Positions 15,946 through 59,670 of a DNA stretch of 64,000 nucleotides are shown here, piece after piece. The DNA is taken from IMG/VR virus record IMGVR_UViG_3300025876_000006, positions 64,001-128,000 of that record; one strand, 5' to 3'. How positions within the stretch are numbered: the first letter of the stretch is position 1; every line of letters begins with the position of its first letter. The translations under genes were made by a program, and so were the position numbers. This DNA comes from a virus. A model generated the notes under the pieces. It saw only the letters and a list, made by a program, of their open reading frames with translations, ran no database searches and was not told the DNA's origin.

Positions 15946-16611
15946 ATGAATACAAACGAATTAATAAAAAGCATAGTTTCAGGCGATACTAAGCAATCTT
16001 CTTCGATTTTAAATACTCTTTTAAAAGATAAAGTTAAAACTGAAATTGATTTACAAAGAGTAACTGCAGCAAATAACATTTTTACTGATGCTGAAGATGT
16101 TGTTGAAGCTTGTGGCAAAGAGAAAAAGAAGAAGAGTAAAGAAGAAGTAGAAGAAGGTAATGAATTTACTAAAGCTGCTGCTAAAGCAGTTATTGATGGC
16201 GAAGAGGAATTCGAATTCAACGGTAAGACTTACAAAGCAACTATTGATAAAGAAGCTGCTAAAAAAATCCTTGGTATTAAAGAAGATAATTTAGAAGAAT
16301 CGACGGTAAATCTCAAATCTCTACATGGTAAGCCTTATTCGGTTTGGCATAATTTTAAATTAAGTGATTACAATAAAAAACGTGATGAAGTTTTAGCCTT
16401 TTTCCATAAACTTACTAATTCAAATAAGAAAGAGGTCTTTATAGATGGAGAAGATATTGTTATTATGCATCGTGGAAAACCACATACAATGCCAGCCTTT
16501 TCTAAGAGAAGCGGCATTACTTTTAAAAATGTTTACGATGATATTATAAAACTTTTAGATTCTGTACAACATAATTCAAGTTCGATAAATGAAGCAACAA
16601 GATTTGCATAA
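15946..16611 (+). CDS. Prohead core / scaffold-associated protein (gp67/gp68 position)
   Basis: 221 residues at the place where T4 has core genes 67 and 68, between portal and protease. The N-terminal ~45 residues (ELIKSIVSGDTKQSSSILNTLL...) match the helical start of prohead core proteins in marine T4-like phages. The middle is acidic and lysine-rich (KEKKKKSKEEVEEG). Two gp21-type sites are visible: LEE followed by S (near residue 123) and INE followed by A (C-terminal region). The second half (YSVWHNFKLSDYNKKRDEVL...) is an extra globular part that I do not recognise. Processing by gp21 is inferred. Confidence 0.7.
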   Translation: MNTNELIKSIVSGDTKQSSSILNTLLKDKVKTEIDLQRVTAANNIFTDAEDVVEACGKEKKKKSKEEVEEGNEFTKAAAKAVIDGEEEFEFNGKTYKATIDKEAAKKILGIKEDNLEESTVNLKSLHGKPYSVWHNFKLSDYNKKRDEVLAFFHKLTNSNKKEVFIDGEDIVIMHRGKPHTMPAFSKRSGITFKNVYDDIIKLLDSVQHNSSSINEATRFA

Positions 16612-16612
16612 T

Positions 16613-17269
16613 ATGAAACTAATAACAGAACACAACGAGGAGCTAAATTACCTCACCGAAACAAAGGATGGCAAAAAGAGTCATATCATCGAAGGTATCT
16701 TTATGCAAGCCGATCAGCTTAATCATAATAAAAGGATTTACCCAAAGGCAATTCTAGAAGGTTCGGTTAAAAAATACGTTGAGAATTACGTTGCAAAAGG
16801 TCGCGCAGTTGGTGAATTAAACCATCCTGAAGGCCCTTCAATTAATTTGGATAAAGTATCTCATCGTATTACAGAGCTTAGCTGGAATGGTAACAATGTT
16901 ATTGGTAAAGCAAAGATTCTTGATACTCCAATGGGAACAATCGTTAAGGGATTACTTGAAGGCGGTTGCCAACTTGGTGTTAGTTCACGAGGAATGGGCA
17001 GTGTATCAAAAAATCGCCAAGGCGTTGATGTTGTTAACGAAGACTTTATTTTAGCAACAGTTGATATTGTACAAGATCCTTCAGCTCCGAGCGCATTTGT
17101 AAATGGTATTATGGAAGGCGTTGAGTACTTCTTTGAAGGAAACCAAATCGTTACAAAAGCAGCAGAGCATATTAAAGCTGAGGCTGACAAACTTTCTTTA
17201 AATCAATTAGAAGAGCAACAGCAGCAGCTGTTCTCATCCTTTCTTAAGGATATTTCAATTGATTTATAA
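16613..17269 (+). CDS. 21: Prohead maturation protease gp21
   Basis: A herpesvirus-assemblin-like serine protease that digests scaffold and trims capsid proteins after [L/I]xE. I chose ATG 16613 (MKLITEHNEEL), 1 nt after the core gene stop; an in-frame ATG at 16589 would overlap that gene. Landmarks are IIEGIFMQADQLNHNKRIYPKAIL, the catalytic His in GELNHPEG (~residue 67) and the catalytic Ser in GVSSRGMGS (~123). T4 gp21 is about 212 residues, so 218 is normal. Confidence 0.95.
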   Translation: MKLITEHNEELNYLTETKDGKKSHIIEGIFMQADQLNHNKRIYPKAILEGSVKKYVENYVAKGRAVGELNHPEGPSINLDKVSHRITELSWNGNNVIGKAKILDTPMGTIVKGLLEGGCQLGVSSRGMGSVSKNRQGVDVVNEDFILATVDIVQDPSAPSAFVNGIMEGVEYFFEGNQIVTKAAEHIKAEADKLSLNQLEEQQQQLFSSFLKDISIDL

Positions 17270-17388: not shown

Positions 17389-18789
17389 ATGTCTAATAAT
17401 ATATTAAACGAAGAATATGATGTTTTCGACATTGTCGAAGCTGACTTAGATTCTCTTGACACGTTAGAGGAAGTTCCTAATTTGGAAATAAGTGAAGAAG
17501 CCTCTGACTCTGAGGAAACACTCGATGATTCTATTGAAGAATCTGTCGAAGAAACCGAAGAAAACGCTGAAGATATTGCAATCTATAATGAAAGCAATGA
17601 AATTAGTGAGGATGTCAATGAGATTGAAGATTATTTAGTACAACGCAGAAATGCACGAACTAAATCCGAAATGGAAATAAGTGAACAACATCCTAACAAA
17701 CAAGAAACAATGGAAGAACAAGAAATTAGCGAAGAAGCGGTAGCCGTTGAGGAAACCGAAGAAATCGTTGAAGGTTCTGTTGAGCAAGCTGAAGAAGTAG
17801 TTGCTGAACAAACTGAAGAAGTTGAAACTACTGAAGAAGTAGAAGAGATCGAAGAAGCTAAGAAAGCTACTAAGAAAGAATCCGATGACGAAGAGGAAGA
17901 AGAATCTGATGAAGATTCCGACGACGAAGAAGAAATGGATTCCGACGAAGAAGACGAAGACGAAGAAGAAGAAGACGTAAAGTCCGAAAAGAAAGTTAAA
18001 AAGGAAGATGCTATTGCGGTTGAAACCGACGATATTAAACGTTTAATTGAGTCAGAAGAAAACCTTACCGAAGGCTTTAAAGCCAAGGCTGCTCTTATTT
18101 TTGAAACTGAAGTTCGTTCACAAATCGCTGAAGCTAAGGAGAAGATCCAAGCTGAATATGATGAGAAACTAACTGAAGAAGTTGAGACAATGAGCTCAGC
18201 TTTATCAGAGCAAGTTGATGAGTATTTAACCTACGCAGTATCTGAGTGGGCTAAGGAAAATTCAGTTGCTATTGAAACTTCTCTACGTACTTCTATTGCT
18301 GAAGACTTCATGTCTTCACTTAAGACTCTCTTTGTTGAGAACTATATTGAAGTTCCTGAAACTAAGGTTGATCTTTTCGAGCAATTGGAAAGTGAAGTTG
18401 CCCAAGTTAAAGAGGACTTTGATAAGACACGCGCAATTGCTGACGAATTGGCCGATAAGGTTGATGCATTAACTCGTGAAAAGGTTATTGTTGAGTCATG
18501 CGAAGGTCTTGTTCAAACTCAAGTAGAAAAACTAAAATCATTGGCTGAGGGCGTTGATTTTGAAGGTGAAGATAAATTCCGTGAGAGTATTAATACTCTT
18601 AAGGGCTTCTACTTTGAAGGCGCTGAGTCAATTAATGAAGAAACGGAAGAACAAGAGTCTGATGAAGATTCTTATTCAACCACAGAAACTATTGTTGAAG
18701 AATCTGCCAGCTCTGATAAGCCAAAGGTTTCCAAAGCAATGCAAAATTATTTAAGTGCTATTAGCAAAGGGAAGAAATTCTCCGAGTAA
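17389..18789 (+). CDS. 22: Prohead scaffold core protein gp22
   Basis: 466 residues, much longer than T4 gp22 (269), mainly through a very acidic Glu/Asp-rich N-terminal half (residues ~20-210) with a D/E/S run near 160-200. The C-terminal half is predicted coiled-coil, the usual scaffold part (AKAALIFETEVRSQIAEAKEKIQAEY...). Several gp21-type [L/I]xE sites are present (for example LTE-G, IAE-A, LAE-G), as expected for a scaffold degraded to small peptides during maturation. It lies directly between protease and major capsid genes. Confidence 0.9.
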   Translation: MSNNILNEEYDVFDIVEADLDSLDTLEEVPNLEISEEASDSEETLDDSIEESVEETEENAEDIAIYNESNEISEDVNEIEDYLVQRRNARTKSEMEISEQHPNKQETMEEQEISEEAVAVEETEEIVEGSVEQAEEVVAEQTEEVETTEEVEEIEEAKKATKKESDDEEEEESDEDSDDEEEMDSDEEDEDEEEEDVKSEKKVKKEDAIAVETDDIKRLIESEENLTEGFKAKAALIFETEVRSQIAEAKEKIQAEYDEKLTEEVETMSSALSEQVDEYLTYAVSEWAKENSVAIETSLRTSIAEDFMSSLKTLFVENYIEVPETKVDLFEQLESEVAQVKEDFDKTRAIADELADKVDALTREKVIVESCEGLVQTQVEKLKSLAEGVDFEGEDKFRESINTLKGFYFEGAESINEETEEQESDEDSYSTTETIVEESASSDKPKVSKAMQNYLSAISKGKKFSE

Positions 18790-18836: not shown

Positions 18837-20078
18837 ATGTTTAATTCAGAAGAACTAGAAAAAAAGTGGGCTCCCATTCTTGAGAGCGCCGATGCACCTG
18901 CCTTCGCCGATAACCATCGCAAAGCAGTAACTGCAGTTATGTTAGAAAACCAAGAGAAGGCACTTGCCGAAGCTCGTGGCCAATCGCAATACCTCAATGA
19001 AGCAGGCGAACCTTCAAACGTTGTTTCTGGTACCGATAACTGGGATCCAGTACTCATCAGCCTTGTACGTCGTGCAATGCCAAGCCTTATCGCTTATGAT
19101 GTTTGTGGTGTTCAGCCAATGTCCGGTCCTACTGGTCTCATCTTCGCGATGAAGTCTCGTTATAATGGCGTTGATGCATCTCCTGTTGAAACAACTGATG
19201 ACGAAGCTCTTTTCAATGCTCCTACTCAATTCGCTCCTTCTACCTCTACCGCACTTGGTGAAGGCAACATTACTAAGGACATGGGTTTCACTATCGAGAA
19301 AGTTGTTGTTGAAGCTAAGACACGTGCTCTTAAAGCTGAGTACTCAATGGAACTCGCTCAAGACCTCAAGGCCATTCACGGTCTTGATGCTGAAGCAGAA
19401 CTTGCTAATATTCTTAGCACTGAGATCCTTGCTGAAATCAACCGCGAAGTTATTGATTCAATTAATACCGCAGCGGTTCTAGGTTTCACCAACCAACTTA
19501 CTGGTACAGGTGATGAAGGTAACTTTGATCTTGACGTTGATGCAGACGGCCGTTGGGCTGTTGAGAAGTTCAAATCACTTCTCTTCCAACTTGAGCTTGA
19601 ATCCAATGAGATTGCTAAAGGCACTCGTCGTGGAAAAGGTAACTATGTTATCTGCTCTTCAAACGTTGCTTCTGCTCTTGCAGCTGCAGGCGTTCTCGAC
19701 TATGCTCCAGCTATCGCGTCCAACTTAAACGTTGACACAACTGGTAACACATTCGCCGGTCTTATCAATGGCCGCATTAAGGTATATGTTGATCCATATG
19801 CAGTTGATGATTACGCTACCGTTGGTTACAAAGGTGCTAACTCGTATGATGCTGGTATTTACTACTGCCCATACGTTCCTCTTACAATGGTTCGCGCCGT
19901 TGACGAGAACAGCTTCCAGCCTAAGATCGGCTTTAAGACTCGTTATGGTCTTGCTGCTAACCCAATGGCTCATGATCCTATTGCTGGTCCAACTAGTAAG
20001 CCAGCAGGTACTGCTAACAACCCTTACTTCCGTAGGTTTACCGTTTCCAATATCAATGGTACTAACCCTGCTGTTTAA
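18837..20078 (+). CDS. 23: Major capsid protein gp23
   Basis: 413 residues; HK97-fold major head subunit. Family landmarks are LEKKWAPILES at the start, NWDPVLISLVRRAMPSLIAYDVCGVQPMSGPTGLIFAM, EYSMELAQDLKAIHGLDAEAELANILS and FKTRYGL near the end. A gp21-type cleavage site, LNE before A (residues 53-56), is where the T4 homologue loses its N-terminal ~65 residues. Codon use is more GC-rich and uniform than in neighbours (many GCT/CTT/GTT), fitting very high expression. A strong terminator follows. Confidence 0.97.
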   Translation: MFNSEELEKKWAPILESADAPAFADNHRKAVTAVMLENQEKALAEARGQSQYLNEAGEPSNVVSGTDNWDPVLISLVRRAMPSLIAYDVCGVQPMSGPTGLIFAMKSRYNGVDASPVETTDDEALFNAPTQFAPSTSTALGEGNITKDMGFTIEKVVVEAKTRALKAEYSMELAQDLKAIHGLDAEAELANILSTEILAEINREVIDSINTAAVLGFTNQLTGTGDEGNFDLDVDADGRWAVEKFKSLLFQLELESNEIAKGTRRGKGNYVICSSNVASALAAAGVLDYAPAIASNLNVDTTGNTFAGLINGRIKVYVDPYAVDDYATVGYKGANSYDAGIYYCPYVPLTMVRAVDENSFQPKIGFKTRYGLAANPMAHDPIAGPTSKPAGTANNPYFRRFTVSNINGTNPAV

Positions 20079-34219: not shown

Positions 34220-34222
34220 TAT

Positions 34223-34230
34223 TATAAATA
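34223..34230 (+). promoter_or_regulatory. Late promoter TATAAATA
   Basis: Perfect element exactly 5 nt before ATG 34236, the first gene with the shared N-terminal cassette. Confidence 0.75.
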
Positions 34231-34235
34231 AAAAC

Positions 34236-34280
34236 ATGAGTACTGAGAAATATTTGTTACCAAACGAGAAGAAGCGTTTA
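34236..34280 (+). repeat. N-terminal cassette repeat, copy 1
   Basis: 45 bp identical to copy 2 (34580-34624) and four mismatches from copy 3 (35214-35258). All copies begin with the start codon. Confidence 0.95.
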
Positions 34281-34562
34281 TACGAATCTATTACAATTCC
34301 AAAGAAAAAAGAAGAGGTTCTGAAACTAATTAAGGATGCTCCTAAAACAAAAGCAACTTCTAAAGATACCAATAATCTATGGAACAAAATATCCACTTCT
34401 TTAGTAGGTCCACTTGAAGATTTAATGTATGAAAAACCATATGATAAAGCATATAGTGCTGGATATAATGGTGATAAAGAACCAAAGAATCCATTTAAAA
34501 AAGATACATTAGCTTACTGGTTCTTTACTAATTTATATACTCAAGGGAGTAACGATAATTAA
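34236..34562 (+). CDS. Small protein 1 with shared N-terminal cassette (candidate packaged head protein)
   Basis: 108 residues. The first 15 residues, MSTEKYLLPNEKKRL, are shared with the genes at 34580 and 35214, and then the sequences diverge. The shared part ends in LYE followed by S, a gp21-type [L/I]xE cleavage site at residues 15-17. The remainder (KKEEVLKLIKDAPKTKATSKDTNNLWNKIS...) is lysine-rich and unrecognised. It has a late promoter. In T4, internal head proteins share a short N-terminal targeting peptide cut by gp21; the same logic is inferred here. Confidence 0.6.
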   Translation: MSTEKYLLPNEKKRLYESITIPKKKEEVLKLIKDAPKTKATSKDTNNLWNKISTSLVGPLEDLMYEKPYDKAYSAGYNGDKEPKNPFKKDTLAYWFFTNLYTQGSNDN

Positions 34563-34566
34563 TTTT

Positions 34567-34574
34567 TAAAAATA
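34567..34574 (+). promoter_or_regulatory. Late-promoter-like TAAAAATA
   Basis: One mismatch from TATAAATA, exactly 5 nt before ATG 34580. Confidence 0.5.
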
Positions 34575-34579
34575 AAACC

Positions 34580-34624
34580 ATGAGTACTGAGAAATATTTG
34601 TTACCAAACGAGAAGAAGCGTTTA
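34580..34624 (+). repeat. N-terminal cassette repeat, copy 2
   Basis: Identical in 45 of 45 bases to copy 1 at 34236. Confidence 0.95.
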
Positions 34625-34933
34625 GATGAAGAAACATTATCTGAAGCTAAAGTGCCATCTGACTATTTAGATTTCCAAAGCGATGATAAAAGTTATAAAG
34701 TTTATCAAGCAGATAATAATGGAGAATCTTCTGTAAGACCCGCCGAAAAGGCAAGTAAAAATTGGCCGACTGGTGCTCCAGTAACTAAGACTTTTAAAAA
34801 AGTTTCATCTGCTCCAATTCCAAAAGGTGAGTTCTGGGTTTTAGAATCTGATAAAAGTTTTTATTGGATGGTTAACGGCACTTGGTATTCGATCAGTAAA
34901 AAAGACCATCCCCGCCCACCATTTGATTATTAA
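34580..34933 (+). CDS. Small protein 2 with shared N-terminal cassette (candidate packaged head protein)
   Basis: 117 residues. N-terminus as in the gene at 34236, ending in LDE followed by E (residues 15-18). The body (FQSDDKSYKVYQADNNGESSVRPAEKASKNWPTG...FWVLESDKSFYWMVNGTWYSISK) looks like a small beta-rich domain with several Trp and Tyr. Unknown function. It is followed without spacer (TAAATG) by the gene at 34934, which carries a different, MKSFK-type N-terminus. Confidence 0.6.
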   Translation: MSTEKYLLPNEKKRLDEETLSEAKVPSDYLDFQSDDKSYKVYQADNNGESSVRPAEKASKNWPTGAPVTKTFKKVSSAPIPKGEFWVLESDKSFYWMVNGTWYSISKKDHPRPPFDY

Positions 34934-35188
34934 ATGAAAAGCTTTAAACAATATTTAGAGGGATTGCGTATTGCTTATACTCCAGCTCAACAAAAAGCGA
35001 TGGATAAAAGGACAAATGCGATGAATTCAGATCTTAAGAAAAAGTTTAAAGCTGGAAAGATTTCAATTAAATGGTCTCAGACAAGAGGCGGTCACGCTAT
35101 CTTTGTTAAAGGTAGAATGGAAGGTCCTCTCTTTGATTCTGAAGATGACGCTGAAAAATATTTAAAAAAACTCGGTATTCGAGTATAA
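34934..35188 (+). CDS. Small basic protein with capsid-targeting-like N-terminus MKSFKQYLEG
   Basis: 84 residues, pI clearly basic. The first ten residues resemble T4 internal-protein targeting peptides (MKTYQEFIAE) and match the N-termini of genes at 52778, 56315 and 58867. The [L/I]xE site is imperfect here (YLE-G). The body contains KISIKWSQTRGGHAIFVKGRMEG and ends DAEKYLKKLGIRV. Its last 41 bp plus flanks recur at 35688-35728. Function unknown; it could bind DNA in the head. Confidence 0.6.
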   Translation: MKSFKQYLEGLRIAYTPAQQKAMDKRTNAMNSDLKKKFKAGKISIKWSQTRGGHAIFVKGRMEGPLFDSEDDAEKYLKKLGIRV

Positions 35189-35190
35189 AT
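35150..35190 (+). repeat. Direct repeat copy A (3' end of the gene at 34934)
   Basis: 41 bp covering the last 13 codons and the TATAAATT after them. 40 of 41 bases match 35688-35728. Confidence 0.9.
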
Positions 35191-35200
35191 TAAATTAAAA

Positions 35201-35208
35201 TATAAATA
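35201..35208 (+). promoter_or_regulatory. Late promoter TATAAATA
   Basis: Perfect element exactly 5 nt before ATG 35214. Confidence 0.75.
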
Positions 35209-35213
35209 AAATC

Positions 35214-35258
35214 ATGAGTACTGAGAAATATTTGTTGCCAAACGAGAAGAAGTGTCTG
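35214..35258 (+). repeat. N-terminal cassette repeat, copy 3
   Basis: 41 of 45 bases match copies 1 and 2; most changes are silent, one makes Arg14 a Cys. Confidence 0.9.
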
Positions 35259-35666
35259 GATGAAGCAAAACTTGCAGGTAAAAATAGAGAACGGCTTGAT
35301 AGTTTAATCTCTTTATATGTCACGGCAACAGATCCCGAGGCAGATTATTATTATGATGGAGATGTTCCTGATGCTGAAAAGATTTTAAATGATATTAAAA
35401 AAGAATTTGGATCAAAAATTGCCAAAGATGTTGGTAATGGAACAAATATTTTCCATTATGGTAGAGATAATAATCAAGGAGGTCGCTTAACATACGGGGA
35501 TGCGACAAAACAGCGTGGCGCAAGACGTATCACAAAAGGTGGTAAAATTAATAAGCAGGACGCAGCAAAACTTAAAAAGGATATTAAAGATATTTTAAAG
35601 AATACAAAATTAAATACTGCTTATCGATCACATAAGTTAAAAGGAAAATTACCAGAGAGTAATTAA
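35214..35666 (+). CDS. Small protein 3 with shared N-terminal cassette (candidate packaged head protein)
   Basis: 150 residues. The N-terminus MSTEKYLLPNEKKCL is followed by DE-A, again a gp21-type site (LDE, residues 15-17). The body is charged: residues ~20-80 acidic (ATDPEADYYYDGDVPDAEK), and the last 60 strongly basic (RGARRITKGGKINKQDAAKLKKDIK). This suits a nucleic-acid contact. No family recognised. Confidence 0.6.
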   Translation: MSTEKYLLPNEKKCLDEAKLAGKNRERLDSLISLYVTATDPEADYYYDGDVPDAEKILNDIKKEFGSKIAKDVGNGTNIFHYGRDNNQGGRLTYGDATKQRGARRITKGGKINKQDAAKLKKDIKDILKNTKLNTAYRSHKLKGKLPESN

Positions 35667-35687
35667 TAAAAAACCTTTGACACTGAA

Positions 35688-35728
35688 GCTGAAAAATATT
35701 TAAAAAAACTCGGAATTCGAGTATAAAT
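35688..35728 (+). pseudogene. Direct repeat copy B: orphan 3' end of a 34934-type gene
   Basis: 40 of 41 bases match 35150-35190, including codons AEKYLKKLGIRV and stop, but no start or body is present. It is a gene-tail remnant. One base change makes the trailing TATAAATT a perfect TATAAATA, now the likely hsp20 late promoter. Confidence 0.85.
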
Positions 35729-51209: not shown

Positions 51210-52766
51210 ATGGATATTAACAAACTAAGATTTAAGGATTTCGTATTAACTGAAGGTATTTCATCAGGCTCTATTGAGAAAGCTACCTTTTTAATGATTA
51301 AGTATTTAAAAAAGAAGACGGGTTTAAACCTTTTCGCAATGCCAGAGCTAGAGCAATATAAAGGATCTGCTGGTAAAGGATTTGGTTTACGTTTGTTCGC
51401 TAATAAGAATGGTATATCCGTTCGATTAAACTTCTCTTCAACAAGAGCTCAAACGAATGCATTAACCGGATTTGATGTTTGGTTAGGAGACGGTAAACCA
51501 TCAACACGAGTTGAGTTTGCTAATATGACAAGCGTTGTTAAAATCCTTCCTATTGTTGCTGAAATCATTAATAACAAAGGTTCAAACAGTAAAGTAGTTT
51601 ATACTATTCCAGATGGAGTTCCTTTAAATGAAGGATACGCATATGGAACAGATTCCATTCTTTTAAAAGAAGCAGCGGGAGCTGGTGATGTTCCAGCAAT
51701 GTTTGATGATATTGTTGATATGATTGTATCTCCTAACTTTTCAAAAGGGAAGATCTATAGGAAATATAAAAGTGCTGGAGTTAAAGTATTCGAAGCTCTT
51801 GAAGAAGTATATCCAAAGAACATTACCAAGCAAGGCGTTAAATATGTATTTGACGGTAAGCCTGCAGTAGTACAAAAGATCAAGAAAGATAAATCTAAAA
51901 TTCTTGAAATGATTGGCGCTAACGAAGGTAAAGTAACTAAAGGGAGTGCTAAAGAAACATATGCTGATAATTCAAATGCAGATGAGCTTTTAAATGATAG
52001 AGAACGATTAAGTTTTGAAGCTCAGTTAGAAGATCTTGAGAATCTATTGAAACTAACCGTTAATGGCGCAGCGAACGCAATCTTTATTGCTGGGCGTGGC
52101 GGAGTTGGTAAAACGTTTACTACAGAAAAGATTCTTGGTGAAATGGGTTATAGAGATGGAGCTGGTTACTTTAAGAACACTGGTTCTGCTAGTGCGGCTG
52201 GAATGTATTCTCTATTATTTAAATATAAGAATGAAATTATCTTCTTCGATGATAGTGACGATGCTCTTAAAGACCAAGAAAGCCGTAACCTTTTAAAAGC
52301 TGCAACCGATACCAAAAAGATTCGTAAACTCGTTTGGAACAAGATGGGTAAGAATGTTGCAGAGCCTGATGAAATGACTGACGATGAAATCCTTGATGCT
52401 GGATTAATTCCACGTTACTTTGAATTCACGGGCAAGATCATCTTTATCTCTAACCTTAAGATGAACAAGCTTGATCCTGATGGCGCACTAAGAACTCGAG
52501 CATTTATTATTGATATTGATCCAACCGAAGGCGAAATTTACGACTTTATGGATAAGATTGTCGGTAAGATTTCTTTAGAAGAAGGTTTAACTCTTGATTT
52601 AACAGAACGTAAACGAGTAGTTGATCTATTAAGAAAAGGAAAAAGTAAGCAATCATCAAACCTTCGTAAGCTATCCCGTGGTTTAAATATGGCCGCTGGA
52701 GCTTTAAAAGCAGGTGTTGCCGTTGCCGATAAAGAGTTGGCTCGTATGATTGAAATTTACGCTTAA
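51210..52766 (+). CDS. AAA ATPase with capsid-targeting-like N-terminus
   Basis: 518 residues. The start MDINKLRFKDFVLTEG contains an F-K-D-F pattern and LTE-G (residues 13-16), a gp21-type cleavage site. Residues ~20-250 are an unrecognised alpha/beta region. An AAA-type ATPase follows: FIAGRGGVGKTFTTEKIL (Walker A ~295-302), IIFFDDSDDAL (Walker B ~343) and IIFISNLKM (sensor, ~410). The late promoter and proposed prohead processing suggest a head-packaged ATPase. A chaperone for head contents is possible. Confidence 0.65.
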   Translation: MDINKLRFKDFVLTEGISSGSIEKATFLMIKYLKKKTGLNLFAMPELEQYKGSAGKGFGLRLFANKNGISVRLNFSSTRAQTNALTGFDVWLGDGKPSTRVEFANMTSVVKILPIVAEIINNKGSNSKVVYTIPDGVPLNEGYAYGTDSILLKEAAGAGDVPAMFDDIVDMIVSPNFSKGKIYRKYKSAGVKVFEALEEVYPKNITKQGVKYVFDGKPAVVQKIKKDKSKILEMIGANEGKVTKGSAKETYADNSNADELLNDRERLSFEAQLEDLENLLKLTVNGAANAIFIAGRGGVGKTFTTEKILGEMGYRDGAGYFKNTGSASAAGMYSLLFKYKNEIIFFDDSDDALKDQESRNLLKAATDTKKIRKLVWNKMGKNVAEPDEMTDDEILDAGLIPRYFEFTGKIIFISNLKMNKLDPDGALRTRAFIIDIDPTEGEIYDFMDKIVGKISLEEGLTLDLTERKRVVDLLRKGKSKQSSNLRKLSRGLNMAAGALKAGVAVADKELARMIEIYA

Positions 52767-52772
52767 TAAATA
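52765..52772 (+). promoter_or_regulatory. Late promoter element AATAAATA
   Basis: AATAAATA exactly 5 nt before ATG 52778. Confidence 0.7.
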
Positions 52773-52777
52773 ATAAT

Positions 52778-54160
52778 ATGAAATCATTTCAAACTTTCTT
52801 AATTGAGGGAACCAAGTTAACTCCCCGTGAATTAAAAAAACCAGCTACTGGAGGGCCGAACTCTGGAGTTTCTCGCCTTGAAATTCTTTCTAATAAAATT
52901 AGAAAACAAGAACCTTTAACTTTAGCAAATGGTAAAACGTTTATTGTGACTGATACTGCTGGAGCTTTATCTTCTATTGAACAATTTAGAAAAGACGGAA
53001 TGGCTTTTAAACTAATTGGAAAAAGCGGATCGGAAATTTCATCGTCGGATCTATTAAAAACGCTTGAGTTTGGTGGTGGTACTGGAGCTGGTGGTGGAAC
53101 AAAAAATACAGCAATTGGAGAATCTGCTCAATGTGTATGGATGGCCGCAATGGTTGAAATTGGATATGATAAACCAATTGAAAGTTTTACTGATGAAGTA
53201 TTAACTAAAGCGTTTAAAAAGGTAAGTGTTGGAAAAACTTCGTTAAAAGATATTTTAAGTATTGATGAGAGTTGGAAAACATCCTCATATTTAACAGCAC
53301 ACTTCGCAATTAAAGAGCGTCTTATTGAAAGAGGTATGACTTTTCATAGAGATGATTCTCTTATGAAAGAAATTTATAAAGCTAAAAACACAGCTTTTAA
53401 AAATAACGATTTTAAACCACTTACAGATGATAAATGGAACCCAGGCGATATTTGGGTGGCTGATTCTGACTTTAAATTATCAGAATTAAAAACTGATACA
53501 CTAGAAGGATTTAATGATGATATACTCGACTTATATTTACAAAAGAGACTTGTTGGTATTTCATTAAAGAAAGTTTCTAAAGCAGTAAAAGGAGTTGAAA
53601 AAAATGTTACTCGTCCACCAGAAACTGAAGATTACAAATTTGTAGCAGGCCATATTAAAGCGTTAACACGAGGAGAATGGTATACAAGTAAAACTAATTA
53701 TATTACTTATATGGGCGGGCAACTAGATATTAGAGCAAACACCGGTTTTGGTTCTCATAAAGTAGAAATTAAAGGTAAAGGCGCCAGAGGAGGCGGAGCT
53801 TCTTGGGGCGTTATGTCTGATGCTGCTAAAAGAATTTATCGAAAAGAACTTCCAAAAAATAATAAAATGAAAAAAGATGCTAAACTAATAGCATCTGGTG
53901 ATAAAAGAGCAGTTCAAAATTTTACTAAGTTATTACAAACCGTGGATAAAAAAATATCCAATGCAGAAGTAATAGAAAAATTAGCAAGTCTTGGCAAAAA
54001 CGCTGATATATGGGTTCACGGTAAACTAGGTGGCCTTTATGTATTACAATTAATATCAAAAGGTGGCCAAAAGGCAAATAAGTTTATTACTCAGATAATT
54101 AACTATGCTGGTAGTTCTACTTCAGACTCAAGCGCATATATTATTCTAAAAGAGAAATAA
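52778..54160 (+). CDS. Candidate packaged protein with nuclease-like core and MKSFQTFLIEG N-terminus
   Basis: 460 residues. The N-terminus matches the T4 internal-protein targeting peptide in geometry: hydrophobic at 8, Glu at 10, then Gly (LIE-G). In the middle, WNPGDIWVADSDFKLSEL (~222-240) and VGISLKKVS (~259) resemble the D...xK elements of a PD-(D/E)xK nuclease fold. Earlier, GGGTGAGGGTKNTAIGESAQCVWMA is a glycine-rich loop. Function is inferred; it may be an injected nuclease or an anti-host factor. Late promoter 5 nt upstream. Confidence 0.6.
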   Translation: MKSFQTFLIEGTKLTPRELKKPATGGPNSGVSRLEILSNKIRKQEPLTLANGKTFIVTDTAGALSSIEQFRKDGMAFKLIGKSGSEISSSDLLKTLEFGGGTGAGGGTKNTAIGESAQCVWMAAMVEIGYDKPIESFTDEVLTKAFKKVSVGKTSLKDILSIDESWKTSSYLTAHFAIKERLIERGMTFHRDDSLMKEIYKAKNTAFKNNDFKPLTDDKWNPGDIWVADSDFKLSELKTDTLEGFNDDILDLYLQKRLVGISLKKVSKAVKGVEKNVTRPPETEDYKFVAGHIKALTRGEWYTSKTNYITYMGGQLDIRANTGFGSHKVEIKGKGARGGGASWGVMSDAAKRIYRKELPKNNKMKKDAKLIASGDKRAVQNFTKLLQTVDKKISNAEVIEKLASLGKNADIWVHGKLGGLYVLQLISKGGQKANKFITQIINYAGSSTSDSSAYIILKEK

Positions 54161-54175
54161 TATTATTAGTATCAA

Positions 54176-54259
54176 ATGAAGATATTAACATTCATACTAA
54201 TAGTTATAGTACTAACCTCATGTGGCATTGCGCCTCCTGAGTGTATGATTGGGCATTAA
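54176..54259 (+). CDS. Tiny lipoprotein, 27 aa precursor
   Basis: MKILTFILIVIVLTSCG shows a lysine, a hydrophobic h-region and the lipobox L-T-S-C (Cys16). The mature peptide is only 12 residues (CGIAPPECMIGH) and has a second cysteine. It lies in the 99-nt gap after the nuclease-like gene and abuts the stop of the reverse-strand gene. A role as outer-membrane lipopeptide, mini-spanin or superinfection-exclusion factor is possible. Confidence 0.6.
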   Translation: MKILTFILIVIVLTSCGIAPPECMIGH

Positions 54260-55840
54260 TTAATCTTCGACCCAAACCGCGGCCAAAGATACTCGAGCAA
54301 GACTTTCAGTTGATTGCACAATAAATGAAATGCTGCTATTTGGTGGAACTACAATTCTTAGATCCCCAAGATTAATCGAAGAACTTCCCCCGCCAGGTAC
54401 TTCAAACATGTAAATTGGCAGATTGTTGTCAACTGTTGTGCTTACATCTCCTATAGTATCTGAATAATATACAGATGAATTTTCCTCGCTTCTTGTGTTA
54501 TACTCAAGCTCAGGTAATCCATTAAAATTATAATATACTGATACAAGTACAGGCGTTCCAGCTGGATTTGTTAAGAATGCCGAATTAATATTTTTTAATA
54601 AAACTTCTCTAGTATTAATTTTATTCTTATAAATTAATCTATTATGTAAAGTTAATACATGATGATAATCATCTGCAGATAAGTTAGGGTTTTCATCATA
54701 TGTAATTGATGTAGCAGTTGGCAGTTTTGTATTTTCTATTAAACCTTCAATTGCGCCTAACATAGAACCACCTGATACATAAATATCAGTTCCAGTTCCA
54801 CCTAAACTTGCAGCAATCCATCCAACCTTTAACGATGGGTTATCAACGTGAACATCATCATAATTATTTGCATATTTTATTTCATGGAAAACAATCATGT
54901 CTCCATTTAACGGGTTTTCAATAGAGAATCTAATTTGCCCAGCACCAAGCCATCTAAAATTAATTTGGAAAACGTTTAATTTAGTTGGATTTAATATTGC
55001 TCTACTATAACCATTACCATCAAGAGTATCACCATTAAAGTCTTCTTGGTATGTCCAATTATTAGTATGATTTACACCACCTTGAAGAACTGAAAGAGTA
55101 GCAGTAACGCCAGTTGAATCTGTATCAGAAAAAGAAAATGTTCCGGTTTTAGGCCCAACCCCAGTTGATAAAAAACAAACTTTATCAGCAACATATTCTA
55201 AAATCCAAAAATCACTTATAATACCATGATGTATTTTTCTTGCCACATCATTGGCAGTATCTCCTGCTAAGACTGCAATAACAAAATCTTCATCATTTAA
55301 TGTTACGGTAATATTTCCAGATGTTGTGGCTGAATTACTAATAACAATATTATGAATATGGGCTTTACCTTTATTCTGTAAAAGAACTCCAAATTTATCA
55401 CCATCAAAGCCAACCTGTATAGCTTGCTCTTGCGCAAAGAATCCCGCTCTTTGAGTATAACCGATGGCTCCTTCTGTAAATTGAGCAGTGAACCGTGTTA
55501 ACGCGCCCTGCCCTGGTCTATATCTTACTGCTCTTTTTGATCTAATAACGCCATAACCACCCAATGAAGTTCCGGTTCTACATTCTAGTAAAGTGTTTGA
55601 GGCTATTGCAGATCCACTCTCAGATTCATAAGACTCAAATAGTCTTTCATCTAAACCATATAAACCATCCAATTGAAATACCGGCGTAATAGGAACACTC
55701 ACATGTTCTCCAAATACGCTTACTGCTGAAGCGCTTGATGTTTTAACTGGATTACCATATTCATCAACCGCTAATGACGCCTCAAAAAGCGAGGTATTAT
55801 CATTAAGATAATTTTGAGAGGTTCTATTCCACTGGGCCAT
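54260..55840 (-). CDS. Reverse-strand virion-structural-like protein
   Basis: 526 residues. I chose ATG 55840 (MAQWNRTSQNYLND), because a perfect late promoter sits 5 nt upstream; a longer frame would run through the promoter. The sequence is rich in Gly, Ser, Thr and Asn with beta-strand patterns and no cysteine clusters: GVIRSKRAVRYRPGQGALTRFTAQFT, RAGFFAQEQAIQVGFDGDKFGVLLQNKG, FQINFRWLGAGQIRFSIEN. These occur in large virion proteins of marine T4-like phages that I recall as unclassified structural proteins. Position and strand are odd. Confidence 0.7.
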   Translation of the reverse strand: MAQWNRTSQNYLNDNTSLFEASLAVDEYGNPVKTSSASAVSVFGEHVSVPITPVFQLDGLYGLDERLFESYESESGSAIASNTLLECRTGTSLGGYGVIRSKRAVRYRPGQGALTRFTAQFTEGAIGYTQRAGFFAQEQAIQVGFDGDKFGVLLQNKGKAHIHNIVISNSATTSGNITVTLNDEDFVIAVLAGDTANDVARKIHHGIISDFWILEYVADKVCFLSTGVGPKTGTFSFSDTDSTGVTATLSVLQGGVNHTNNWTYQEDFNGDTLDGNGYSRAILNPTKLNVFQINFRWLGAGQIRFSIENPLNGDMIVFHEIKYANNYDDVHVDNPSLKVGWIAASLGGTGTDIYVSGGSMLGAIEGLIENTKLPTATSITYDENPNLSADDYHHVLTLHNRLIYKNKINTREVLLKNINSAFLTNPAGTPVLVSVYYNFNGLPELEYNTRSEENSSVYYSDTIGDVSTTVDNNLPIYMFEVPGGGSSSINLGDLRIVVPPNSSISFIVQSTESLARVSLAAVWVED

Positions 55841-55845
55841 ACTTT

Positions 55846-55853
55846 TATTTATA
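55846..55853 (-). promoter_or_regulatory. Late promoter TATAAATA (reverse strand)
   Basis: Perfect element on the minus strand, exactly 5 nt before the ATG at 55840; only 2 bp from the divergent plus-strand element. Confidence 0.78.
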
Positions 55854-55855
55854 CA

Positions 55856-55863
55856 AATAAATA
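55856..55863 (+). promoter_or_regulatory. Late promoter element AATAAATA (divergent pair)
   Basis: AATAAATA exactly 5 nt before ATG 55869; forms a near-palindromic pair with 55846-55853. Confidence 0.72.
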
Positions 55864-55868
55864 ACTTT

Positions 55869-56303
55869 ATGAAGAGGATACGGGTATATGGTTGTTTGGA
55901 CAAACCTAAGTTAAAAAAAGAAATACGTGAAGCTGCGTCTCTTTTTATTCAAGATCTTTTACCACGTAAACGCAAGTATGATATAACAATAACAATATCT
56001 TCAGGTTTATCTAAAAAAGTAGGATCCTTTGGAGAATGCTGGTCATGGTCTCGTAATGAATATACAGTTAAGATCGACGGATCTCAAACAAAGGAAAATA
56101 TTTTTAAAACACTTGCTCATGAATTTGTACACGTTAAACAATTCTCAGTTGGAGAATTAAAATTCTTAACTAAATTTGATGTTTGGCAAGGAACCGTATA
56201 TTACCATGGAGCTAAATACGAAACTCTTCCATGGGAAAGGGAAGCAACTCAATATGAAAAAATTCTATATAACAAACATATTGTCAATAAAAGACAATTA
56301 TAA
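55869..56303 (+). CDS. Zinc metallopeptidase-like protein (SprT-like)
   Basis: 144 residues. KTLAHEFVHVKQFSVGELKFL carries HExxH (His84, Glu85, His88), and LPWEREATQYE downstream supplies a likely third zinc ligand (Glu). The small size and E-x-x-A helix are like SprT-family or minigluzincin peptidases. It has a late promoter and precedes the packaged-enzyme candidates, but its own N-terminus (MKRIRVYGCL) lacks the targeting-like peptide. Substrate unknown. Confidence 0.7.
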   Translation: MKRIRVYGCLDKPKLKKEIREAASLFIQDLLPRKRKYDITITISSGLSKKVGSFGECWSWSRNEYTVKIDGSQTKENIFKTLAHEFVHVKQFSVGELKFLTKFDVWQGTVYYHGAKYETLPWEREATQYEKILYNKHIVNKRQL

Positions 56304-56306
56304 ATA
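56299..56306 (+). promoter_or_regulatory. Late promoter TATAAATA
   Basis: Perfect element 8 nt before ATG 56315, overlapping the peptidase stop codon. Confidence 0.7.
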
Positions 56307-56314
56307 CTAAATAA

Positions 56315-57238
56315 ATGAAGTCCTTTAAAGAATATATTGGTGAAGCTGCTAAAACACAAAAGCAGTTCATTGCTCACCTTGATAAAATGCCACCACTCAA
56401 ATTTCTTGAACTTGCAAAACGTCTTGATAAAGAAATGGGCGGAGTTCTTTCAAAGGATAATGCTGAGATCAGAGAGAAGATGGATGGTTCAGCTCTTCGT
56501 ATTGGTTTAGATGAGAAGGGGCGATTCTTTGCTCAAACTTCTACATCGCCTTCATTTTTTAACTTTGGCGATTTTAGAAAGCGTTTTTCTAAGCATGGTG
56601 AAGAAGCCGCACTTATGGGAGACAAGTGGGATGATATTTTTAAAATGATAAAGAGTGACTCCAAGGTTAATGCCATTCTTAAAAAGTATAATACTAAAAA
56701 CGGTATTAAGGTTGTTGGAGAGATTATGTATCCTCCGCTTGGTATTGATTTACTTGATAAAATGCGATTTATTCGTATTGATTATGAGAAGAAAAAACTT
56801 GGTTCTGATTATACCTTCGTTCCTTTTTACGTTATGGATAATGAAAATAACATACATCCAAAAGAAAAAGAAATCTTTAAAGAACTATACAAGATATCAA
56901 ATTCTAAACGTAAATATGTCAATACCGTTGTTTTAAAGGATAAAGACATTAATATTAAAACGGATTTGAGTATTGTAAACAACGATCTTGTTAAGAAATA
57001 TAAAAATTTAAATGATATATTGGTATCAAGGAAGCATATAGATCGTGAGTTAAAGGAAAAAATTAAAAACGAAATTTTACTTCTACAGCGTAAACTGGCC
57101 GCTAAAATTCTTTCATATGTTGATGGTGGTTTATTAGGAAAAGATTTTGAAGGTATTGTAATTAAACTCAGTGACGGATCACTAATCAAAATTATTTCTG
57201 ATAAGTTTAAGAACACCACCTTTGATAAAAACCGCTAA
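56315..57238 (+). CDS. ATP-dependent ligase-like nucleotidyltransferase with capsid-targeting-like N-terminus
   Basis: 307 residues. The start MKSFKEYIGEA has hydrophobic-8, Glu-10 and Ala-11 (IGE-A), the T4 geometry. The body shows ligase motifs: motif I EKMDGS (KxDG, Lys55), motif III-like VVGEIMYPP (~134), motif IV FEGIVIKL (~279) and motif V KIISDKF (~292). A ligase that joins DNA or RNA, or a related RNA-capping-type enzyme, is likely. Being late and possibly packaged, it could repair or circularise injected DNA; this is a hypothesis. Confidence 0.75.
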   Translation: MKSFKEYIGEAAKTQKQFIAHLDKMPPLKFLELAKRLDKEMGGVLSKDNAEIREKMDGSALRIGLDEKGRFFAQTSTSPSFFNFGDFRKRFSKHGEEAALMGDKWDDIFKMIKSDSKVNAILKKYNTKNGIKVVGEIMYPPLGIDLLDKMRFIRIDYEKKKLGSDYTFVPFYVMDNENNIHPKEKEIFKELYKISNSKRKYVNTVVLKDKDINIKTDLSIVNNDLVKKYKNLNDILVSRKHIDRELKEKIKNEILLLQRKLAAKILSYVDGGLLGKDFEGIVIKLSDGSLIKIISDKFKNTTFDKNR

Positions 57239-57244
57239 TAAATA
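57237..57244 (+). promoter_or_regulatory. Late promoter element AATAAATA
   Basis: AATAAATA overlaps the stop codon of the ligase-like gene and lies 8 nt before ATG 57253. Confidence 0.65.
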
Positions 57245-57252
57245 ATAATATA

Positions 57253-58158
57253 ATGCTAGCATATAAACAATTTTTAGAAAATAAACGGCAGCTGTCTGAA
57301 GGTGGTAACGCTGTTAAAGGAGTCGGACCGATTAATCAAGAGAATTCTATTCCTACATATAATAAAATTCTTAGTGAGTTTTTGCCAAAGCTTAAACTTA
57401 AAGATAAGCATGTAGCGAGTCTTGGCTCTACTGGTAAAAAAGGACCAAAGCAAACCTCAGGCGATATTGATATTGCTCTTGATGCTACCGAGCTTTTAAA
57501 ATCAAATAAGATTGACACATATGCAGATCTAATGGATTTTATTGTTGTTACAGTTAAATCTTTAGGATATGATTATAAAGATATGCGTAGTATTGGTATT
57601 GTTAGTATTGCATATCCAATTGTTAATGACGATAAGTTACAAGCAGATAAACTTGTTCAAGTAGACTTTATGGTTGTTGAAAATCTTAAACATGCAACAT
57701 GGGCTTTTCACAGTCCTTCATATCTTGAGTCCAATCTAAAGGGTTTATATAGAAACGAATTAAACTTTGCTGTCGCTAAATATGCTGGATTTAAAGTAAC
57801 TGAAAGAGACAAAGAAAGCAAAGAAGCCGTTACATGGCAGCGCTTTTGGTGGGATATTAAACGAGGCTTAAGTAAAGGAACACAAACTCGATTAAGTGCA
57901 AAGACTGGTAAAATTGTAAAAGGCACTAGACCGTTAACAAAAAACGATATTTCTGATGAGCCTGATGATATTGTTAAGTTCCTATATGGAGAGAAATATA
58001 AAGCAAGAGATATTTTAACTTTTGATGATGCTCTTAATGCTATTATGAGTAATGATTTTCCTTATAAGAAACAAAGGAAGACTATTTTAAAAGCTGCATC
58101 CGAATCTATACAAAAGAAAGGCTTCCCTATTCCGAAGCAAATGGCCAAATATATATAA
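57253..58158 (+). CDS. Pol-beta-type nucleotidyltransferase with targeting-like N-terminus
   Basis: 301 residues. The N-terminus MLAYKQFLENKRQLSEGG fits the targeting pattern with LSE-G at residues 14-17. ASLGSTGKKG (~55-64), SGDIDIALD (DxD, ~68-76) and VQVDFMVVE (third Asp, ~138) are the three acidic elements of the nucleotidyltransferase fold. A basic stretch near residues 205-222 (RGLSKGTQTRLSAKTGK) may bind nucleic acid. Substrate unknown; candidates are RNA or DNA tailing or transfer of a nucleotide to protein. Confidence 0.7.
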   Translation: MLAYKQFLENKRQLSEGGNAVKGVGPINQENSIPTYNKILSEFLPKLKLKDKHVASLGSTGKKGPKQTSGDIDIALDATELLKSNKIDTYADLMDFIVVTVKSLGYDYKDMRSIGIVSIAYPIVNDDKLQADKLVQVDFMVVENLKHATWAFHSPSYLESNLKGLYRNELNFAVAKYAGFKVTERDKESKEAVTWQRFWWDIKRGLSKGTQTRLSAKTGKIVKGTRPLTKNDISDEPDDIVKFLYGEKYKARDILTFDDALNAIMSNDFPYKKQRKTILKAASESIQKKGFPIPKQMAKYI

Positions 58159-58171
58159 CATATAACAAACG

Positions 58172-58867
58172 ATGGAAGAATTTCAAAAAAACGATATGGC
58201 TGAAGGCCGCTCATGGAAATCTATAGGACACTATACCGCAGATGGTAAAGAGTGGGCTGGAGATCAACATGCGCATAATGGTCAAATAATGACTGGTAAG
58301 ACGCATGATAAAAATAGTGTTTACTTATATCATTATAAAGAATTATCTGCTGAAGTGAGAAAAAAAATCGATGCAGAAATTGAAGAAGCAGAAAAGGATT
58401 TACGCTTACGTGACCTTGAAGTTGTTGATCCAACCGATGGCAGTTGGGGCGATGAAATGGGCTTCTTAAATCGTCGATATATGAAACGTCATAATTCGTA
58501 TGTTACTGAAGATTCCGAAGACGAATGCTATAGTGAAGCGTTAACCGCTATTCAACGAATTAAGCGTAGAGCGATAATGCGTAAAAGCAAAGCGGCTATT
58601 GCTCGTGGCCGACGTCGTTCTGAAAAGAAAAAACCAACACTTAAGGTAATGAAGAATAGAGCTTTGAAAGCTGCTAGGAACCTTTTATTTAAAAAGTTGG
58701 CGGGTCAACGATCAAAAGATGAGTTGAGCTTTTCTGAAAGATCTAGAATTGAAAAGGTTCTATCAAAAAAACAAGGGAAGATCAAAGCGATTGCTAAAAA
58801 GATTTTACCAAAATTAATCCAAAAGGAAAAAGCGAAGCGTGCTAAAAAAGCAGCAGAAAAGAAATAA
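58172..58867 (+). CDS. Highly basic protein, probable DNA-associated virion component
   Basis: 231 residues. The N-terminal half is mixed and acidic, with MAE-G near residues 9-12. The last 100 residues are strongly basic and helical (RIKRRAIMRKSKAAIARGRRR, KNRALKAARNLLFKKLAGQRSKDELSFSERSRIEKVLSKK). I recall a similar basic tail in proteins of T4-like phages next to nucleotidyltransferases. It likely binds packaged DNA. It overlaps the next gene by one base (TAATG). Confidence 0.6.
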   Translation: MEEFQKNDMAEGRSWKSIGHYTADGKEWAGDQHAHNGQIMTGKTHDKNSVYLYHYKELSAEVRKKIDAEIEEAEKDLRLRDLEVVDPTDGSWGDEMGFLNRRYMKRHNSYVTEDSEDECYSEALTAIQRIKRRAIMRKSKAAIARGRRRSEKKKPTLKVMKNRALKAARNLLFKKLAGQRSKDELSFSERSRIEKVLSKKQGKIKAIAKKILPKLIQKEKAKRAKKAAEKK

Positions 58868-59670
58868 TGAAATCATTTAAAACATTTATTAAAGAAAAGG
58901 AAGTCAAAACATTGGTGACTACCTTTGGCCGTTTTAACCCGCCACATGTTGGACACGCCGTAAACTTTAAAGAGTTAGCAGCAGCAGCTAAAAAAGAAAA
59001 AGCGGATTATAGAATTTACTCTTCGCAGTCGCAGGACGCTAAAAGGAATCCATTAGGATATGAAGAAAAAATTAAATTTCTTAGAAAGCTTTTTCCTCAA
59101 CACGCTCGTAGTATTTACTTAGACAAAAAGGTTAAAAACCCATTTGATGTTGCTAAACAAGCTTATGCAGATGGTTATGAGAAACTTGTTATTGCGGTTG
59201 GGCCAGATCGTGCGAACGAATTTAAAGATATGTTATTGAAATATAACAAAGAAGGTGGTATATTTTATTTTCCTGCCGGTATTGAAATTGTTGATACTGG
59301 AAAGGGTAAAAGGATTTCAAGCGCCACTCTTATGAGAAAGTCTGCAGAAAATAATGACCTTGCAACCTTTGCTAAAAATCTTCCTAAAACCTTTAAAGAA
59401 GTTGAAAAGTTATTTAATGCAGTAAGGAAAGGAATGGGTTTAAAAGAATCTACCAACTTCCGCAAACATATTGATATAAATCCAAATGAAGCGCGTGAGC
59501 GTTTTTTCAATAAGGAAATCTTTAATGAAAATGATAAAGTTATAAGTATAAAGGATAATAAAACTTATACTATTAAAGAGCGCTTTAGTAATTACGTTAG
59601 CGCAGCTGATGGCACCACTATTAAAAAGTTTTTTATAACAGATATAATCCCTATTAATGAAAACCCTTAA
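58867..59670 (+). CDS. HIGH-family nucleotidyltransferase with capsid-targeting-like N-terminus
   Basis: 267 residues. MKSFKTFIKEK has hydrophobic-8 and Glu-10 (IKE). VTTFGRFNPPHVGHAVNF (~18-34) has the T/HxGH motif of cytidylyl/adenylyltransferases. VIAVGPDRANEFKDML (~114) and GKGKRISSATLMR (~144-156, ISSTxxR-type) are as in nicotinamide- or pantetheine-phosphate adenylyltransferases. Residues ~180-267 form an extra C-terminal domain. The metabolite is unknown; NAD-related chemistry is one option. Confidence 0.75.
   Translation: MKSFKTFIKEKEVKTLVTTFGRFNPPHVGHAVNFKELAAAAKKEKADYRIYSSQSQDAKRNPLGYEEKIKFLRKLFPQHARSIYLDKKVKNPFDVAKQAYADGYEKLVIAVGPDRANEFKDMLLKYNKEGGIFYFPAGIEIVDTGKGKRISSATLMRKSAENNDLATFAKNLPKTFKEVEKLFNAVRKGMGLKESTNFRKHIDINPNEARERFFNKEIFNENDKVISIKDNKTYTIKERFSNYVSAADGTTIKKFFITDIIPINENP

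Follow-up and report, generated by a model that had tools for sequence, protein, structure and literature searches.

A Recombining N-Terminal Cassette in an Uncultured Marine Relative of T4 as a Probable Second Type of Cleavable Capsid-Targeting Tag

Three small genes of an uncultured marine relative of phage T4 begin with the same 45-bp cassette in front of unrelated bodies. This cassette probably codes for a propeptide of 17 residues that targets proteins to the capsid and is then cleaved off; it would be a second type of such tag, the T4-like M-K-x-[FY]-x-x-[FY]-[IL]-x-E being used elsewhere in the same genome, and we put the probability of this reading at about 0.75. A sequence-only reading had suggested an N-terminal tag that can be transferred and differs from the MKSFK type, and this is supported by the synonymous-only divergence of the tag's first half, the invariance of L15 and E17, a tag swap on a fourth gene and the sharing of one tagged gene between distant phages.

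The Phage and Its Relatives

The stretch of DNA analysed here (the window, 64,000 nucleotides) comprises bases 64001–128000 of the 170.7-kb virus record IMGVR_UViG_3300025876_000006. PHROG matches identify a T4-type portal (gp20), prohead protease gp21, scaffold gp22 and major head protein gp23; RegA and Hsp20 are also encoded in the window according to family matches, while the clamp loader and gp43 DNA polymerase are assigned by position and length. By gp23, the nearest isolates are Methylophilales phage Melnitz (58%) and Pelagibacter phage HTVC008M (56%). The head genes referred to below are as follows.

16589..17269, + strand: gp21-type prohead protease (phrog_207, E 1.3e-75), with 8 L/I-x-E sites vs 3.2 expected
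17389..18789, + strand: gp22-type scaffold (phrog_237), rich in L/I-x-E, with 22 sites vs 12.8 expected
18837..20078, + strand: gp23-type major head protein (phrog_138), predicted maturation site YLNE/A, with LNE at residues 53–55

The site YLNE/A of the phage gp23 stands at the place where T4 gp23 is cut.

The tag is known from four lineages, all of them uncultured phages. Lineage A consists of the window phage and IMG/VR contigs of nearly the same phage, found by pattern and protein scans; scans of IMG/VR revealed the cassette in three further lineages, B, C and D. Lineage B is close to A (gp43 99.4%, gp44 98.4% identical) and carries genes 1, 2 and 4 of the window without gene 3. Lineages C and D are distant from A (identity of C to A: gp43 57%, gp62 49%, regA 70%), related to each other, and both carry genes 4 and 3. 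Among isolate phages no relative of the tagged bodies was found, only chance-level matches; none of the 39 matches to a cassette-like pattern in cellular genomes is a related start tag; and a survey of N-termini in Melnitz and HTVC008M yielded no such small-gene tag, only scattered weak or repeat-protein pairs. Contigs L011 and L015 (MGTEKYFLPN...) were dropped as tag carriers, being unrelated larger proteins, as were L066–L070, which are non-genes or chance matches.

Where genes 1 and 2 sit in lineage A, lineages C and D have a 364-aa protein (L045:3578-4672, L047:3541-4635). It starts MKTPKSNSLVE or MSTHKNTSLVE, with L-V-E close to the start, and one part of it resembles a Melnitz hypothetical protein.

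Cassette Copies and Tagged Genes

The tagged genes form an island among replication genes, bounded by regA on one side and by the hsp20/DNA polymerase genes on the other. The features of the island are listed below.

34236..34280, + strand: cassette copy 1, start of gene 1, 45/45 identical to copy 2
34278..34286, + strand: predicted gp21-type site LYE, residues 15–17 of gene 1; LDE in the lineage B ortholog
34236..34562, + strand: gene 1, 108 aa, no family match; lineage B ortholog 116 aa
34580..34624, + strand: cassette copy 2, start of gene 2, 45/45 identical to copy 1
34622..34630, + strand: LDE, the predicted site in gene 2; another site, LSE, at residues 20–22, with LTE in the same place in B
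34580..34933, + strand: gene 2, 117 aa, no family match; lineage B ortholog 63–65% identical
34934..35188, + strand: gene 4, 84 aa, starting MKSFKQYLEG (T4-CTS-like); same body with an MSTEKYLLP tag in C and D
35214..35258, + strand: cassette copy 3, start of gene 3, 41/45 identical to copies 1 and 2
35256..35264, + strand: LDE, the predicted site in gene 3; C and D have LAE here
35214..35666, + strand: gene 3, 150 aa; absent in B, 81–83% identical in C and D

The cassette, MSTEKYLLPNEKKRL, encodes the peptide MSTEKYLLPNEKKR/CL. Its three copies (34236-34280, 34580-34624 and 35214-35258) have the positions and identities reported from the letters alone, copy 3 differing from the identical first two at 4/45 bases. 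A 26-base stretch of the cassette matches twice in the window, where shuffles give an expectation of 0.00, and a pattern search of the whole 170.7-kb record detected no cassette copy beyond the three. The bodies behind the cassettes are indeed unrelated, as had been claimed, with 0–5/40 residues identical after residue 20.

An L-x-E motif occupies residues 15–17 of genes 1, 2 and 3 (LYE, LDE and LDE), so that residue 18, as predicted earlier, is the correct expected new N-terminus. The sequence-only reading had placed this motif after each copy; the motifs themselves are as it gave them, but they do not lie wholly outside the repeat. The L of L-x-E is inside the 45 bp, and the protease site is therefore a part of the repeat rather than an independent element; the entire LDE is common to copies 2 and 3. 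Searching related phage genomes for the cassette, the check that reading had proposed, recovered it in B, C and D with L-x-E kept. Across all lineages the tag is 17 residues long (18 in one copy) and L-x-E is present in 9/9 copies.

Three of the four predicted mature bodies are basic, the body of gene 2 being neutral (predicted pI of genes 1, 2, 3 and 4: 9.0, 6.9, 9.7 and 10.1). Genes 1–4 have no Pfam, PHROG or NCBIfam match above the cut-off. The AlphaFold2 model of gene 3 is poor (pLDDT 39); that of gene 4 is moderate (pLDDT 73) and consists of a helix, three strands and a helix, a predicted fold with no convincing match in PDB or BFVD. Sequence matches of gene 4 to topoisomerase II (E 0.04–0.2) and of gene 3 to protein G are at chance level, and both relationships were rejected. 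A YafQ-type toxin identity for gene 3 was also discarded, as the similarity at its C-terminal end is sub-threshold and too weak to use; this likeness covers residues 108–150 (35535-35663) and ends with AYRSHKLKGKLPESN, as would a domain of this kind cut short after its first part. Gene 1 of the window lacks eight codons that follow the tag in lineage B (RLDESKTESIKESI vs RLYESI; L058:4327-4362 vs 34281-34292), and despite this it keeps L-x-E at the junction.

Selection on the Tag and the L-x-E Site

Nine copies of the cassette, named by lineage and gene, were compared: A1, A2, A3, B1, B2, C4, C3, D4 and D3. Codons 1–9 contain six variable sites, all of them synonymous, with 0 amino-acid changes in 36 pairs, although 58/72 of the possible single changes would be nonsynonymous. 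Under a simple equal-rate model, which ignores mutation bias and shared ancestry, the chance of such a synonymous-only pattern is ~5e-5. Since the lineages differ there only synonymously, codons 1–9 are under selection for the peptide they encode.

The second half of the tag behaves differently. Residues 10–14, 16 and 18 are all variable, the x at position 16 being Y, D, T or A, and L15 and E17 alone are invariant in the nine copies; these are exactly the residues that make up gp21 (L/I-x-E) recognition. Conservation of L15 and E17 had been foreseen from the window alone and held in the other phages. The best single test is the most diverged copy, B2, in which NEKKRLDE has become NQRQALTE with L-x-E retained. 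Copy D4 has one additional residue (MSDTEKYLLP) and likewise retains LAE.

PMC9026906 describes cleavage by T4 gp21 after L/I-X-E and propeptides of 10–19 residues in the T4 internal proteins. L/I-x-E is over-represented at residues 6–20 of the genes (20/63 vs 9.3 expected, p=0.0005). Shuffling indicates that ~15% of genes carry the motif in this interval by chance, so a single L/I-x-E means little, and it is the conservation across copies that constitutes the evidence.

Tag Exchange on Gene 4

Gene 4, whose body is recognised by the motif TPxQ...IKWSQxRGGxAIFVK...YLKKLGI, occurs with two different starts. The body starts with MKSFKQYLEG in lineages A and B and with MS(D)TEKYLLPHEKKRLAE in C and D, where the gene begins MSTEKYLLPHEKKRLAE and MSDTEKYLLPHEKKRLAE, respectively. 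The MSTEKYL tag has not merely been overlooked on gene 4 of lineage A, as the codon directly before its MKSFK start is a stop codon.

Tags of the MKSFK type resemble the new tag in that the gene 4 body occurs with either of them in different phages, while their sequence differs from it. The T4 CTS pattern fits such tags on three other proteins of the genome, and the reversed control gave none. The three serve here as comparison tags.

52778..52807, + strand: T4-type CTS-like tag MKSFQTFLIE
56315..56344, + strand: T4-type CTS-like tag MKSFKEYIGE
58867..58896, + strand: T4-type CTS-like tag MKSFKTFIKE

These complete MKSF tags stand on larger proteins (RNA-ligase-like, cytidylyltransferase-like), whereas the new tag is found on small proteins in one island. 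In the T4 CTS, targeting involves residues 4 and 7, and processing involves residues 8 and 10 (PMC9026906). Of these, the MKSFK tag on gene 4 has F4, Y7 and L8 but no E at position 10. Because E10 is missing, the exchange involves the targeting determinants only and not a complete cleavable tag; it is good evidence that targeting would be interchangeable, and it speaks more weakly for interchangeable cleavage.

Late-Promoter Element

A match to the late-promoter element ends 5 nt before the ATG of each tagged gene, as had been noted earlier: TATAAATA before copies 1 and 3 and TAAAAATA before copy 2. All three are consensus matches only.

34223..34230, + strand: late-promoter element TATAAATA, 5 nt ahead of gene 1
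34567..34574, + strand: TAAAAATA, late element with one mismatch, 5 nt ahead of gene 2
35201..35208, + strand: TATAAATA, 5 nt before gene 3

The element stands at 5 nt in lineages A and B (A2 with one mismatch). In lineage C, a perfect element stands at the stop codon of gene 4, 33 nt ahead of gene 3; gene 4 of C and both tagged genes of D have no element within 70 nt. Two genes without the tag, at 7199 and 20179, have a perfect TATAAATA at 5 nt as well. Hence, of the proposal that tag, promoter and site move together, the linkage of tag and site stands, whereas the promoter is separable, as the four C/D copies lack the 5-nt element and untagged genes have it. Late expression is accordingly less certain in C and D, where the element is not at the 5-nt position.

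Across the window, TATAAATA lies exactly 5 nt before an ATG at 4/12 of its sites (7186, 20166, 34223 and 35201), and Shine-Dalgarno-like sites are rare. If the T4 spacing is valid here, the first transcribed base would fall on the start codon or beside it, and the late mRNAs may then lack a leader.

The Cassette as a Recombining Unit

Between lineages A and B, the body of gene 1 differs at 9/273 bases and its cassette at 7/45 (Fisher p=0.003; third positions p=0.003), and within A the cassettes of genes 1 and 2 match each other at every base. As the cassette diverges more than the body behind it, it is the cassette, and not the gene, that was copied between genes. The C4 and C3 cassettes are likewise alike within their genome (44/45).

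The repeats also appear to recombine with loss of the sequence between them. In contig L009 the sequence upstream of copy 1 is joined to gene 2 by an exact 344-bp deletion between 59-bp repeats, and position 34280, at which the two paths separate, is also the precise end of contigs L002 and L003. This fits coexisting alleles with and without gene 1 in one population, the deletion being seen in a single contig, where it may also be an assembly error. The repeat sequences involved here and around gene 3 are the following.

34222..34280, + strand: 59-bp repeat, left arm of the gene 1-deleting recombination (L009)
34566..34624, + strand: 59-bp repeat, right arm (57/59 identical)
35147..35190, + strand: gene 4 3′ tail, copy 1 of the direct repeat flanking gene 3
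35684..35728, + strand: second copy of this repeat, a remnant of the gene 4 tail (AEKYLKKLGIRV + TATAAATA) downstream of gene 3

Gene 3, which is missing in B, lies in lineage A between the two copies of the gene 4 tail. Tag included, it is 83% identical between A and C, above the values for gp43 (57%), gp62 (49%) and regA (70%); identity in excess of that of core genes, together with absence from B, points to transfer of gene 3 between phages. The duplicated gene 4 tail after gene 3 includes the late element TATAAATA/T, which overlaps the stop codon (GTATAAAT). Since tail and element were duplicated together, the element upstream of hsp20 was kept despite the insertion of gene 3.

Comparison with T4 Internal Proteins

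The closest parallel is provided by the CTS of the T4 internal proteins IPI, IPII and IPIII, a short N-terminal propeptide on small, mostly basic, unrelated proteins that ends in L/I-x-E for gp21. T4 ipII and ipIII share MKTYQEFIAEA and the surrounding DNA while their bodies are unrelated, which is the same architecture as that of the cassette genes in the window. T4 internal proteins are basic (PMC9026906), their bodies are highly variable between relatives (PMC3012670, PMC12373910), and the CTS alone is conserved among diverse anti-restriction proteins (PMC3012670). The internal proteins are recognised mainly by the CTS; those studied block host restriction enzymes, Ip1-3 each blocking a different GmrSD enzyme (PMC12373910), and T4 phages that lost ipIII are reported to have lost one host (PMC9391042).

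By sequence, however, the new tag does not belong to the T4 CTS family. PMC9026906 assigns a role in T4 CTS targeting to the aromatic residues at positions 4 and 7; the window tag MSTEKYLLPNEKKRLDE has E4 and L7 instead, leaving the classic pattern unmatched, and its site falls at residues 15–17, unlike that of M-K-x-[FY]-x-x-[FY]-[IL]-x-E. T4 ipI, which reads MKTFKEFTSTTTPVSTITEA, has I-x-E at residues 17–19. This longer-propeptide variant (MKTFKEFTSTTTPVSTITE) resembles the window tag in the placement of I-x-E and in propeptide length, but it still opens with the MKTFKEF motif like other T4 CTSs, and the window tag does not. Packaging, cleavage and injection were shown for T4 and are predicted for the window tag, which on this evidence would work like a CTS.

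Alternative Explanations

An N-terminus common to unrelated proteins could, L-x-E included, be a docking motif for another phage or host protein, such as the replication or late-transcription machinery or a host target. The location of the island between regA and gp43 agrees with this, and docking motifs likewise show invariant residues and spread over unrelated proteins. We nevertheless regard docking as unlikely, as the only residues fixed in the second half of the tag are those recognised by gp21, and on gene 4 the tag replaces one of the MKSFK type, a type that elsewhere in the genome fits the T4 CTS pattern. The cassette does serve as a recombination patch, as the L009 deletion and the ends of L002 and L003 at 34280 illustrate, and its copies are homogenised within genomes (A1–A2 45/45, C4–C3 44/45). 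That it is nothing more than a recombination or expression module (start context, homology patch), encoding a peptide without a role, is very improbable given that codons 1–9 differ only synonymously between lineages, which argues for selection on the peptide, and that the sequences upstream differ in C and D.

A recent tandem duplication in which entire genes were copied and their bodies then diverged rapidly, which the sequence-only reading had named as the competing account, deserves almost no credence. Copies 1 and 2 do lie next to each other with all 45 bp in common, but the near absence of identity between bodies (0–5/40 residues), the separate gene 1 and gene 2 orthologs of lineage B with their own, diverged cassettes, the absence of gene 3 there, and the excess divergence of the gene 1 cassette over its body (7/45 vs 9/273, Fisher p=0.003) together exclude it. 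Equally slight is the prospect of Sec/Tat-like export or a membrane signal peptide. The tag is N-terminal, cleavable-looking and common to unrelated proteins, as such a signal would be; however, its 17 residues are hydrophilic and charged, and the longest hydrophobic run is YLLP, flanked by E, K and R, where a signal peptide has a core of ~7–15 residues. The "secretion" half of the earlier suggestion of a secretion or packaging tag must be given up, since the hydrophobic core is absent.

Proposed Function

We hypothesize that the cassette acts as a capsid-targeting propeptide in the following way. The tagged small proteins would be produced late, and residues 2–9 (STEKYLLP) would attach to the scaffold core of the prohead, by way of a gp22-like or some other core protein, so that the tagged proteins become enclosed in the prohead. 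A gp21-like protease would then cut after E17 of L-x-E, releasing the bodies within the head, from where they could be injected alongside the DNA to work, like T4 internal proteins, at an early stage of infection. The start cassette may double as a DNA homology patch through which bodies are gained, lost and exchanged in one variable island. Late timing, core binding, cleavage, packaging, injection and an early role of the bodies are what we infer from the sequences.

With less confidence, although we still lean towards it, we propose that at least two head-packaging tags, interchangeable but unrelated in sequence, are in use among marine T4-like phages, the second being a recombining plug-in that swaps unrelated early-acting injected proteins, with deletion variants coexisting in the same sea-water population. 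Within the accessible literature on capsid-targeting sequences, a partial body from which subscription papers are mostly missing, we found no second tag type for marine T4-like phages. If there is a second tag of unrelated sequence, injected proteins of these phages escape searches that use the classic motif, and the start sequence of the tag alone would be a handle for finding such proteins. The gene 4 swap could be viewed as a natural experiment that sets core-addressing residues against protease residues.

Other N-Terminal Tags in the Window

Another cluster, at 51210-59670, contains genes for larger proteins with T4-CTS-like or L/I-x-E N-termini, which start with MDINKLRFKDFVLTEG, MKSFQTFLIEG, MKSFKEYIGEA, MLAYKQFLEN and MKSFKTFIKE. 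These proteins, an RNA-ligase-like and a cytidylyltransferase-like protein among them, are candidate head-packaged enzymes.
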